DNA of 64,000 nt, taken from Sphingobium sp. GTDB lineage: Bacteria; Pseudomonadota; Alphaproteobacteria; Sphingomonadales; Sphingomonadaceae. The notes below the pieces were generated by a model. The model ran no database searches. It was not told the DNA's origin and saw only the letters and a list, made by a program, of their open reading frames with translations. Positions 12,134 through 18,585 of the stretch are shown here, piece by piece. Every line of letters starts with the position of its first letter. Within the stretch, counting starts at the first letter, position 1. The stretch lies in NCBI GenBank assembly GCA_020446425.1, contig JAGRES010000031.1, positions 1 to 64,000 of the forward strand, read 5' to 3'. The translations under genes and the position numbers were made by a program.

Positions 12134-12210
12134 GCGCCCGTAGCTCAGCTGGATAGAGCATTCGCCTTCTAAGCGAATGGCCGCAGGTTCGAATCCTGCC
12201 GGGCGCGCCA
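12134..12210 (+). tRNA. tRNA-Arg (anticodon TCT)
   Basis: The acceptor stem is GCGCCCG/CGGGCGC with discriminator G and an encoded CCA at 12208-12210. The D-arm is GCTCAGCTGGATAGAGC. The anticodon stem TTCGC/GCGAA holds loop CTTCTAA, so the anticodon is TCT, reading AGA. The T-arm is GCAGGTTCGAATCCTGC. All canonical elements are present. Confidence 0.97.
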
Positions 12211-12288: not shown

Positions 12289-12362
12289 TGGAGCGGGTAG
12301 CGGGAATCGAACCCGCATAACTAGCTTGGAAGGCTAGGGCTTTACCACTAAGCTATACCCGC
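12289..12362 (-). tRNA. tRNA-Gly (anticodon TCC)
   Basis: On the - strand the acceptor stem is GCGGGTA/TACCCGC, then T and an encoded CCA (12291-12289). The anticodon stem CTAGC/GCTAG holds loop CTTCCAA, giving anticodon TCC, reading GGA. The T-arm is GCGGGTTCGATTCCCGC. It faces tRNA-Arg convergently with a 78-bp spacer in which nothing else is recognised. Confidence 0.97.
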
Positions 12363-13809: not shown

Positions 13810-15975
13810 ATGCGCACCGCCTCTTCACTATCGCTCGTTTCTCTTTCGATCATCGCCCTGTCCCAGTCCCAACTGGTCTATGCTCAGGATCAGGCCACAG
13901 CCACACAGGACAGTTATCACCAGCGGCCAGAGCGCGATATTGTCGTCACGGCCATCATCCCGCGCAGCCAGATCGACATTCTCTCGAATGTTTCGGTCGT
14001 ATCCGGCGAGGAACTGACCCGCGACCTGCGCAACACTATCGGTGAAACCCTGAACCGGCAGGCGGGTGTGTCGGCCACCAGCTTCGGCCCCAATGCATCA
14101 CGGCCCGTGCTACGCGGCCTGCAGGGAGAGCGTGTTCGTGTGCTCACCGACGGTATCGGCAGTTTCGACGTTTCCACGACATCGGTAGACCATGCCGTCG
14201 CGATCAATCCGCTGACCGCCGAACGTGTCGAAGTGCTGCGCGGCCCTGCTGCGCTGCTCTATGGTTCCAGCGCGATTGGCGGTGTAGTCAATGTTATCGA
14301 CGCGCGTATTCCACGCCGCCTGCCCAGTGAGCCGGTGCATGTTGAGGGCATCGCTACTTATGGCAGCGCCGCCAATGAACGCACTCTTTCCGGCAAGGCC
14401 GAGGCGCCGCTGGGCGGCGGTTTCGTAGCCCATGTCGATGGCAGCTGGTCGAAGACGGACGACCTGAGGACCGGCGGTTATATCCTCGCCAAGCCGCTGC
14501 GCGCGATAGCAGCGCAGTCGGACGAGGAAGAGATACAGGAAAACGCCATGCTGCGCGGCAAGCTGCCGAACAGCGCCGCGGAAATGTGGGAAGTGGCGGG
14601 CGCGGTCGGCTATATCAACGACAATGGCTCGCTGGGCGTCTCCATCGCCCATACGGATAATCGCTATGGTGTACCCGCCCGCCTTGAAGTCGAGGAAGAG
14701 CATCATGAGGACGAAGACGAACATCATGATGAGGAGGGCGAGGAAGGACACGATCATGCTCATGAAAGCGTCACGCTGGCGATGAAGCAGACCCGCGCGG
14801 ACCTGCGCGGTGAGTTGCACGCAGGCGGCGGTTTCATCGACACGATACGTCTGCGCGCCGGGTTCGCCGATTATCAGCATGATGAAATTGAGGATAATGG
14901 AGAGGTCGGCACGAGCTTCTATGCCAAGGGGCTGGAGGCTCGTGCCGAGCTTGTACAGATGCGCCGGGACGGATGGGACGGCGTGATCGGCGGGCAATTC
15001 TACGCACGCGATTTCCATATAGTCGGCGAGGAGAAATTCCTGCCCGCCAACAGCACGACGCAGTTCGGCCTTTTCACGCTGCAATCGGTCGACTTCGGCG
15101 ATCTGCGCGCGGAAGCGGGTGCGCGCTACGAGCATAGCCGTATCTCCGCCAAGGCTGACAGCGACCTCGGCTTTGCTGCGACGGTGCGGACGTTCGACGC
15201 CCTCTCCTTTTCGGCAGGCGCGAGCTATGCGCTGGTTCCCGGCTGGCGTATCGGCGTGAATGCAGTGCGCAGCGAACGCGCGCCCGCCGCCGAAGAACTC
15301 TATGCGCGGGGCCCGCACGCGGGCACGCAGGCATTTGAACTAGGGAGCCCCAGTTTCGGCAAGGAGAAAAGCTGGGGCCTGGAGGGCAGCCTGCGCGGCT
15401 CCGGCAGCAATTACAGGATAGGCTTCTCGGGCTTCTACAACTGGTTCGACGGCTATATATATGACAGCATCGTCGATGATGCGGCCTGTCTCGCCGTTAC
15501 CGACGACCTCGACTTCCCCTGCTTCCAATATAATCAGGCCAAGGCACGTACCTATGGGTTCGAGGCCGAGGCGGAAGCGACTGTAGCGCGGTGGGACGAC
15601 ATGGCGCTGAGGCTCGATGCCAGTGCAGATTATGTACATGCCACAATCGTGGGCTCGGGCCCTGCCCCGCGCATCCCCCCGCTGCGCATCATGGGCGGCG
15701 CAGAGCTAGGAACTGACCGCTGGACGGGACGGATCGAAGCCGAGCATGCCTTCAAGCAGGACCGTGTCAGCGCGCTGGAAACGGAAACGCCCGGCTTCAC
15801 ACTAATCAACGCCTCGCTGAGCTATAAACCTGTCGCGGGTAACGATGCGACCAGCATCACGCTTTCCGCCAACAATATATTCGATGTGACCGCCCGGCGG
15901 CATGCCAGCGTGCTGAAGGATTATGCGCCGCTCGCGGGGCGCGACATCCGCGTGACCGCCAGATTCGGCTTCTGA
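13810..15975 (+). CDS. TonB-dependent receptor, ZnuD-like (probable zinc uptake)
   Basis: The protein is 721 residues with a signal peptide ending near VYAQD. A plug domain follows (ERDIVVTAIIPR, RPVLRGLQGERVRVLTDGIG, VEVLRGPAALLYGSSAIGGVVNVID), then a beta barrel ending in Phe (RVTARFGF). An extracellular-type loop at about residues 293-320 is extremely rich in His, Glu and Asp (EEEHHEDEDEHHDEE, then GHDHAHES). Such loops mark ZnuD-type outer-membrane zinc receptors. A Zur-like palindrome lies just upstream, which fits. The substrate could also be another divalent metal. The promoter-proximal neighbour is the acidic-linker LysR-type gene. Confidence 0.87.
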   Translation: MRTASSLSLVSLSIIALSQSQLVYAQDQATATQDSYHQRPERDIVVTAIIPRSQIDILSNVSVVSGEELTRDLRNTIGETLNRQAGVSATSFGPNASRPVLRGLQGERVRVLTDGIGSFDVSTTSVDHAVAINPLTAERVEVLRGPAALLYGSSAIGGVVNVIDARIPRRLPSEPVHVEGIATYGSAANERTLSGKAEAPLGGGFVAHVDGSWSKTDDLRTGGYILAKPLRAIAAQSDEEEIQENAMLRGKLPNSAAEMWEVAGAVGYINDNGSLGVSIAHTDNRYGVPARLEVEEEHHEDEDEHHDEEGEEGHDHAHESVTLAMKQTRADLRGELHAGGGFIDTIRLRAGFADYQHDEIEDNGEVGTSFYAKGLEARAELVQMRRDGWDGVIGGQFYARDFHIVGEEKFLPANSTTQFGLFTLQSVDFGDLRAEAGARYEHSRISAKADSDLGFAATVRTFDALSFSAGASYALVPGWRIGVNAVRSERAPAAEELYARGPHAGTQAFELGSPSFGKEKSWGLEGSLRGSGSNYRIGFSGFYNWFDGYIYDSIVDDAACLAVTDDLDFPCFQYNQAKARTYGFEAEAEATVARWDDMALRLDASADYVHATIVGSGPAPRIPPLRIMGGAELGTDRWTGRIEAEHAFKQDRVSALETETPGFTLINASLSYKPVAGNDATSITLSANNIFDVTARRHASVLKDYAPLAGRDIRVTARFGF

Positions 15976-16086: not shown

Positions 16087-16127
16087 TTGAGTTTATGAAA
16101 CATTAACCAATTTATTGCATTGCAATA
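16087..16127 (+). promoter_or_regulatory. Putative promoter with a 15-bp palindrome before the Amt-MCP gene
   Basis: TTGAGT (16087-16092) and TTTATT (16111-16116) are spaced 18 bases and resemble a sigma-70 promoter. The 15-base palindrome TATTGCATTGCAATA (16113-16127) overlaps the presumed -10 and start site. A palindrome in that position is typical of a repressor operator. The binding protein is unknown. No convincing sigma-54 (TGGCAC-N5-TTGC) site was seen, although ammonium transporters are often NtrC-controlled. Confidence 0.4.
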
Positions 16128-16152
16128 CCAAATAAGGGGAATGGTATTGCAC

Positions 16153-18585
16153 ATGCGCAAACGAGGGACCGGCGTTATTGCAATTTTGGCTAGCGGCTTG
16201 TTATTGCAGGCATCTCCTGCGCATGCTGGTTGGATTGAAGCCGACAAGACTGCATTTGATTATGGATGGCTGATTATCGCCGGCATTTTGGTTGCGGCGA
16301 TGCAGATCGGCTTCCTGTTTCTCGAAGCCGGGACCGTCCGGTCGAAGAATAGCATCAATGTCGCCATGAAAAACCTGGTGGACTTTGTCATCTCCGCCCT
16401 GTGCTTTGCACTGATCGGCTTTTCCTTGATGTTCGGGGCATCGCAGGCCGGAATCATAGGCTGGGACCATGGGCTGGCCATGTTGCGTTTCAACGACCTG
16501 CCCACGGAAACCTTCTTCTTCTTCCAAGTCATGTTTTGCGGAACCGCAAGCACTATTGTCTCCGGAGCAGTCGCGGAGCGTATGCGCTTTGGCGCCTATA
16601 TGGTATGCACAATCCTGCTGGCGTCCTTCATCTACCCGGTTGCGGGCCATTGGGCATGGGGCAGCCTGCTGGCCGATACCGGCCAGGGATGGCTCGAAGC
16701 TATGGGTTTCATCGACTTCGCCGGGTCAACGGTTGTTCATGTCATTGGGGGCGCCGCCGCCTTTGCGATGCTTATCCCGCTGGGCCCGCGTATCGGCCGT
16801 TTTGCGAAAGACGGAACCGCTATTCGTATTCAGGGCCACAGCCCCATCTTGACCGTCGCCGGTGTCCTGATCCTATGGATCGGCTGGTTCGGTTTCAATG
16901 CAGGCGGCACGACCGCCGGCACCGATGATTTCGGCCATGCTTTGATGAACACGCTGATGGCAGGTGCAGCCGGTGGCCTAGCTGGTCTTGTTCTGGGCAG
17001 GATCAAGGACGGCTATTATGTCTATGACCGCACGACCAACGGTGTCGTTGCCGGGCTGGTCGCGATTACCGCCGGATGCGTCACATCGTCATTGTTCGGT
17101 GCGACGTGGACCGGCGCGCTGGGCGGGATTGCCGCCATCCTTGGTCAAGACTGGCTGGAAAGACGCTGGAAGATAGATGACGCGGTCGGCGCAGTATCCG
17201 TGCACGCCATTGCAGGCGCCGTAGGCACGCTATGCGTGGCCTATGCCGCACCGCTGGAAAACCTGCCGCATGACCGCTTGACCCAATTGGGCATACAATT
17301 CGCGGGTGTCGCTTCTATCGGCGGCTTCACCTTCCTGTGCCTGCTGCCATTCGCATGGCTTGCCAATCGCATAAACTTCCTGCGCGTGTCGCAGGAGGAC
17401 GAGATGGCGGGCCTCAACGAAGCGGAACATCGCACGCGTCTGGGCACGTCGGACATGCAGGCTGTATTGATGCAGCTGGTGAACGGCGAGAGCGGCCTCA
17501 ACAGCCGCGTATCGACCGAGCAAGGCGCGGAAAGCGAGGACTTGGCCGTAACCTTCAACCAGTTCATGGAAAAGCTGGAAACCGAACAGCAGTCCCATGA
17601 GGAAAAGCTGAAGGCGACCCACGCCAAGGCTGAACTGGAATATACCCGCCGGGAACGCGCGGAGATCGAACGCGCCATCGCCGAAGAGCAACGCCTGCGT
17701 GAAGACGCGCGGGCCGCGAGCCGCCGCGCTGCGCAACTTGAGTCCGTGTTGGCATCGTTCGACCAGACAATAGCGCAAGCGGTGGAGACATTGCTGACAT
17801 CATCAAAGGCGCTGAGCTCAACCGCCAATACGCTTTCCAGCGACGCGGAAGAAACGGAGAAAAATGCTTCGGCAGCTTCGATTAATGCCGAAGATGTGCT
17901 GAGCAGCTCCACAACGGTTGCAGCCGCGACGAACCAGCTCTCGACGACGGTGCGGGAAATTGCCCTGCAGGTGAACACCATGCGTCAGGTGGCGATTGAA
18001 ACCGCGGAAACCGGCAAGGACAGCGAACGCCTCTTCACGTCGCTTGACGACAGTGCAAACCAAATATCGACAATCGTGGACTTCATTCAGAGCGTGGCCA
18101 AACAGACCAACCTGCTCGCCCTTAACGCCAGCATAGAGGCCGCGCGTGCCGGGTCGGCGGGATCGGGATTCGCCGTGGTCGCAGCCCAGGTGAAGGAACT
18201 GGCGCGTCAAACAGGCGACGCCGCCCAGAATGTGCAGGTCTGGATTGATGATGTGACGCAGGCGATCAAACACTCGATCGTTGCAATGAAGCAGGTGGCC
18301 GGTTCCATCGAAAAAACCGAAACCGCCGCCATTTCCGTTGCCGAAATCATCAATGAACAGGCCAGCGCCACGCAGGAAATCAACCAGCATGCGTCCAACG
18401 CGGCCAATATATCGCAAAATTTCACGTCACAGATGAGCGACCTGTCTTCGACGGCGCGGTCGACGAAAACATCCGTTGATGAGGTCAGGAAAGCCTCTTC
18501 GCGTCTCGATGACATGGCGCAGAATCTGAGCAAGGCGCTCAATTCCGAATTCGCCGAGTTCAAGAAGCGCGTCGGTGAAATTTAG
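16153..18585 (+). CDS. Ammonium transporter domain fused to a methyl-accepting signalling domain (Amt-MCP chimera)
   Basis: The single reading frame gives about 810 residues. Residues 1-25 are a signal peptide ending AHA-GW. Residues 30-415 are an Amt/Rh channel with [44 protein letters not shown], the first pore His at about 196 ([14 protein letters not shown]), [14 protein letters not shown], and the second pore His at about 351 ([12 protein letters not shown]). Residues 430-530 are a HAMP-like and coiled-coil linker. Residues 535-810 form a methyl-accepting hairpin whose tip is [18 protein letters not shown] at about 650-667, with [16 protein letters not shown] after it. The start at 16153 best fits the signal peptide; 16120 and 16141 are alternatives. 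No other che gene is in the window. By analogy with Amt-kinase and Amt-GGDEF fusions it is probably an ammonium sensor. Confidence 0.93.

Follow-up and report, generated by a model that had tools for sequence, protein, structure and literature searches.

The window, by which we mean the whole 64,000-nucleotide stretch of Sphingobium sp. DNA that was analysed, contains an open frame on the + strand at 16120-18585 which, read from the ATG at 16153, encodes an 810-residue protein. The protein joins an Amt-type ammonium channel to the signalling hairpin of methyl-accepting chemotaxis proteins (MCPs), and we call this architecture Amt-MCP. Its features are as follows:

16153..18585, +: Amt-HAMP-like-MCP gene, 810 aa plus stop (open frame and Pfam)
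16153..16230, +: N-terminal hydrophobic segment, probable signal peptide, residues 1-26 (by eye)
16267..17433, +: Ammonium_transp domain, residues 39-427 (Pfam)
16303..16326, +: helix 1 part of a Ks-Amt5-like ammonium site, Q51 ... E58 (alignment)
16372..16383, +: helix 2 part of the site, N74 and D77, with F78 at the Ks-Amt5 T51 position (alignment)
16552..16563, +: helix 4 part of the site, T134 and S137, the latter Thr in Ks-Amt5 (alignment)
16906..16908, +: Gly252, replacing the selectivity-filter Ser, AmtB S219 (alignment)
17470..17580, +: HAMP-like stretch, residues 440-476 (sub-threshold Pfam; relative L106 above cut-off)
17623..18036, +: helical connector forming the N-terminal arm of the hairpin, residues 491-628 (alignment and inference)
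18037..18486, +: MCPsignal domain, residues 629-778 (Pfam)
18112..18171, +: hairpin tip, residues 654-673, Ser668 and Ser671 at the places of Tsr E391 and R394 (alignment)

The fusion and its surroundings

A first-pass annotation had read a one-frame fusion from the letters, and both domains indeed stand far above their Pfam cut-offs: the full Amt domain at 354 bits (E 1e-105, cut-off 23.2) and MCPsignal at 102 bits (E 4.5e-29, cut-off 34.6). The general NCBIfam amt model, TIGR00836, also passes its cut-off (366 vs 343 bits), so automatic annotation would probably label the gene an ammonium transporter. The HAMP-like linker described in that annotation is weak on its own score, as the HAMP profile reaches 12.4 bits in the window protein, below the Pfam cut-off of 25. 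At the same place, L106 scores 29.8 bits, above the cut-off, and L107 22.7 bits, below it; for the six other Amt-MCP proteins of that set, Pfam lists no HAMP. By homology, the window protein likely has one. The MCP half would lie on the correct side of the membrane, because the Amt C-terminus is cytoplasmic according to PMC10433425.

Two congeners carry the fusion at similar length: G604 (792 aa, 67% identity over 768) and G1052 (808 aa, 65% over 802). Against each of them, pN/pS was 0.28-0.34 in all four segments, the Amt domain, the HAMP-like stretch, the helical linker and the MCP, with dS near saturation. Purifying selection acts on Amt, linker and MCP alike. Shared length and uniform selection argue that the fusion is not a sequencing error, the danger raised in the first-pass annotation, and 14 further distinct proteins have the same architecture, with both domains above the Pfam cut-offs in all 15 proteins examined. 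An error that joined two genes, or a gene in decay, would fit the odd hairpin turn and missing strict methylation motif of the window copy, but with linker conservation equal to that of the domains this explanation is hardly credible, and we reject an assembly or frame artefact.

The surroundings are not shared. Between positions 5 and 30 kb of the window and the two congener loci, the fusion itself is the sole match, and the surrounding genes differ. A common che neighbourhood was rejected, as none of the nine neighbours run through Pfam is a che gene. A plasmid origin was likewise set aside: 273 plasmid records match in tblastn and none covers 80% of the protein. So was an upstream sigma-54 site: the window holds 11 two-mismatch matches where chance predicts 14.4, and not one of them precedes the gene. 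No sigma-70-like site was found on the + strand before the gene.

Just upstream, at 13810-15975, lies the gene of a TonB-dependent receptor, one of whose loops, HHEDEDEHHDEEGEEGHDHAHE, is rich in His, Glu and Asp; it possibly serves metal uptake. Two tRNA genes face each other at 12134-12207 (+) and 12292-12362 (-).

The Amt half

In a PDB search, the best solved relatives were Ks-Amt5, the Amt-histidine kinase of Kuenenia stuttgartiensis (6eu6, E 7e-83), and 8qj3/8qpf, entered as 'Ammonium transporter' (4e-82), with E values some 37 orders of magnitude better than that of Af-Amt1 (2e-44); AmtB followed at 1.3e-28. We take 8qj3/8qpf to be Sd-Amt1, an Amt-HAMP-diguanylate cyclase with a GGDEF output. 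Ks-Amt5 resembles the window protein in combining a sensor-type Amt with a C-terminal transducer, but its output is a histidine kinase (HK) and that of the window protein an MCP. PMC5764959 describes Ks-Amt5 as lacking a HAMP, and as having lost transport and holding two NH4+ by Q24, E31, N47, D50, T51, T109 and T112. The aligned window residues are Q51, E58, N74, D77, F78, T134 and S137: five of the seven are identical, one is conservative (Ser for Thr) and one differs (T51 to F78). All seven positions match in 8qj3/8qpf, F78 and S137 included, whereas AmtB, about 29% identical to the window protein, has 0/7.

Four of these residues, QEND (Ks-Amt5 24/31/47/50), occur in all eight Amt-MCP rows, 32 of 33 Amt-HK rows (the 33rd is truncated there), all five Amt-GGDEF rows and four of five other-tailed Amts; AmtB and Af-Amt1 do not have them. 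Because 36 of the 73 unfused rows also carry QEND, we rejected the idea that the site residues identify fused Amts; what they mark is a wide clade, and by themselves they are no proof of sensing. In a 56-row tree, in which the long branches of L154, Ks-Amt5 and 8qj3 call for caution, the 52 fused Amts separate from four unfused rows with support of 100/99 (SH-aLRT 93 in a wider tree). These sequence comparisons place the Amt half among the sensor Amts already known to carry a fused transducer.

With AmtB-type transporters the window protein has in common the fold family, the pore His pair, the Phe gate and the Trp, and it keeps H196, H351, D188, F128, F248 and W169. Thus, the two histidines and the Asp that the first-pass annotation had pointed out are present, but the ten-residue segment it quoted ends in Gly252, not in the filter Ser. 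Gly252 aligns with AmtB Ser219 and Ks-Amt5 S227, and 8qj3/8qpf keeps the Ser. Among 127 aligned Amts, this position is Ser in 122, Gly in four (the window protein and three Amt-MCP kin) and Pro in one. The residues that block the Ks-Amt5 pore, F27, Y30 and F34, correspond to F54, L57 and T61; only the first is kept, and since the other two are small, the pore may not be closed.

These features bear on whether the Amt half still conducts ammonium while signalling, as a transceptor would. The retained pore residues, the two small residues at blocking positions and the match to the NCBIfam subfamily model all favour conduction, as does the fusion being the single Amt match in its own genome and in G908. 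Against it stand the sensor-type site and clade and the Gly at the Ser219 position, and we consider a transceptor unlikely. The earlier suggestion that conduction may be retained therefore fares poorly: with a Ks-Amt5-like site largely kept and the filter Ser replaced, sensing is better supported than conduction as the predicted role of the Amt half.

The argument from a single Amt match is also undermined by the assembly. Contig 31 (91,500 bases) ends within a glnK-like frame (L164, 91384-91500) that is 90-95% identical over 39 aa to the GlnKs of G604 and G1052. Because the contig end cuts this glnK, and glnK adjoins an unfused amt in both congeners, an ordinary glnK-amtB is probably hidden in the gap past the end, which speaks against the fusion being the organism's only ammonium channel. 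G908, rated 95% complete, likewise shows no Amt match besides the fusion, and P-II was not found there. Every other genome among the 94 of the genus has at least one Amt frame of <600 aa, judged by eye among the matches listed. A sigma-54-like site, TGGCACGGTCCTTGCT, lies upstream of the L164 glnK-like gene.

The Amt half could instead sense another cue, such as another amine, K+ or pH, or serve as a mere membrane anchor. Gly252, found in four sphingomonad-family rows, could alter selectivity; the retention of pore and site residues under selection, however, makes either version very unlikely.

The signalling half and its CheA partner

The MCP half shares with Tsr-like MCPs the MCPsignal domain, the tip motif and a long helical hairpin, and it differs from them in a longer C-arm, an altered turn and its sensor, an Amt channel in place of a periplasmic ligand domain. 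In Tsr (numbered from the K-12 tsr frame, L178), the turn directly after the tip is AGEQGRGF. The two congeners retain the usual turn (AGE/DAGRGF), and the window protein has AGSAGSGF. Neither a strict nor a loose consensus for methylation sites matches the window protein, in which the N-arm place reads ATNQLS (ATEQMS in the congeners) and the C-arm place NEQASAT. Of the methyl-accepting hairpin named in the first-pass annotation, then, the tip and the domain match hold, and the turn and methylation places depart from the norm. The methyl-accepting status of the window MCP is unproven, which is a separate matter from signalling to CheA; in this copy, the altered turn and methylation places could make adaptation, or coupling to the kinase, less effective.

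The window MCP half has a C-arm seven residues longer and groups apart from Tsr and the receptors of the contig-5 che operon in a receptor tree with long branches, which holds 10 of the genome's own receptors (11 of 13 others were compared at the tip). It shares the longer C-arm and its tree region with a minority of receptors, C10_104857, C20_95964 and C23_2466. An odd turn, AGSSGMGF, also occurs in the receptor at contig 20, 95964-97718 (L100). In another, at contig 25, 44842-45951 (L097), the C-terminal arm of the MCP ends 53 residues past the tip glutamate; this is a truncated or unusual receptor.

The genome has 14 MCPsignal matches, the Amt-MCP included, three H-kinase_dim matches (CheA), six CheW-domain matches, three of them inside the CheAs, and five flagellin_N matches. 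CheA, CheW, CheR and CheB are all present, in three sets:

Contig 5: CheB, CheW, response regulator, CheD, CheB, CheR, CheA, two MCPs
Contig 10: response regulator, CheA, CheW, CheR, CheB
Contig 25: HPTransfase, CheA, CheW, response regulator, CheB, CheR

The output toward a CheA pathway that had been proposed from the window alone thus finds its machinery elsewhere in the genome. The partner, which had been left open, can be narrowed. Two other Amt-MCP carriers, G604 and G068, have one CheA found each, orthologous to that of contig 25 with gene order kept; contig-25 CheA is 52.9% identical over 817 aa to the first and 39.9% over 823 aa to the second, while the other two CheAs reach 34-37% over ~390 aa. 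Because the sole CheA found in each carrier is of this type, we favour the contig-25 set as the likeliest partner of the window protein, with contig 10 a further candidate.

What this pathway controls is less certain. G604 has two flagellin_N matches, and its contig-25-type CheA, being the only one there, is the only candidate for control of swimming. G068 (L154, L180) is rated 100% complete and has an Amt-MCP and one contig-25-type che set; it gave no flagellin_N match, so the chemosensory pathway fed by the ammonium sensor could conceivably act on something other than swimming, such as gene regulation, pili or the cell cycle. An HPTransfase-domain gene adjoins the contig-25-type set in all three genomes looked at, which fits such an output. 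Given the flagellin matches and lone CheA of G604, we regard this alternative as distinctly unlikely.

Spread, origin and proposed function

Amt-MCPs are rare and scattered. Long Amt frames (at least 797 aa) occur in 3 of the 94 genomes of the genus. Wider surveys were made at E <=1e-100, a threshold that misses divergent fusions. At family level 2 of 397 genomes had a protein matching both halves, at order level 3 of 396 and at class level 4 of 385, in overlapping samples; with a Salibacterium protein as query, 8 of 397 genomes of its order in the Bacilli had one. A related-locus search kept 80 of 571 confirmed relatives. We found 15 distinct Amt-MCPs in all, in Alphaproteobacteria and Bacilli, each with Pfam Ammonium_transp and MCPsignal. 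The other matches were GGDEF fusions in three genomes of the family sample, HK fusions (one in the order sample, 13 in the class sample), all classed by sequence motif (Pfam checks covered the 15 Amt-MCPs and one HK), and four Amt-only matches in the Bacilli survey. Five Amt-GGDEF rows are consistent with the earlier statement that such fusions are known.

The eight Amt-MCPs in the 56-row tree fall in several places, mixed with HK and GGDEF fusions, and well-supported branches force the MCP label to change four times or more. A single origin was rejected for these eight, as the one-clade constraint gave AU p 0.002; seven later Bacilli proteins are outside the Amt trees. The MCP halves of other lineages are 21-30% identical to that of the window, no nearer than most receptors of its own genome.

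We propose that the window protein is an ammonium chemoreceptor that signals via a CheA, and give this reading a probability of about 0.55. Ammonium would enter an Amt trimer by its periplasmic vestibule (F128, W169) and be held in the intramembrane site (Q51, E58, N74, D77, T134, S137) rather than passed on in bulk. A shift of the C-terminal helix would then act through the HAMP-like linker on the MCP hairpin, which would pair with other hairpins and control the CheA kinase, most likely the contig-25 one, leading to a flagellar or other motile response. The data show the fusion and its conservation under selection, the placement among sensor Amts, the site residues, and the genome's CheA, CheW, CheR, CheB and flagellins; that ammonium is the ligand, that bulk conduction is lost, that the HAMP-like stretch does the coupling, which CheA is the partner and what behaviour follows are all inferred.

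In the literature searched, which did not extend to a key 2024 paper on sensor Amts, we found no report of an Amt-MCP, nor of a bacterial receptor dedicated to ammonium taxis. The nearest papers are PMC5764959, PMC8534201, PMC7438415, PMC10433425 and PMC12918730, and a reference line in PMC12245846 is close to the topic. What sets the window protein apart is the MCP output, as the transducer-fused sensor Amt is itself already known.

More tentatively, and at somewhat less than even odds, sensor Amts may be a plug-in ammonium module that has captured chemoreceptor outputs several times, yielding dedicated ammonium-taxis receptors. The six hairpins that make up a trimer of dimers would come from two Amt trimers, and the threefold symmetry of the channel could build the unit of a receptor array. 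If so, a nutrient channel serves as the sensor of a chemoreceptor, and the symmetry problem of a trimeric sensor on dimeric hairpins arises. Nature would also provide a series of near-identical ammonium sensors with MCP, kinase or GGDEF outputs, with two kinds of output even inside one genome.

In genome G743, an Amt-MCP (L107) and an Amt-HK (L122) are sister rows whose Amt domains are 69% identical; they are a natural pair for output-swap studies. Three further Amts, L013, L012 and L061, have C-terminal tails of 815, 144 and 172 aa that match none of the output motifs searched and are possible further outputs.
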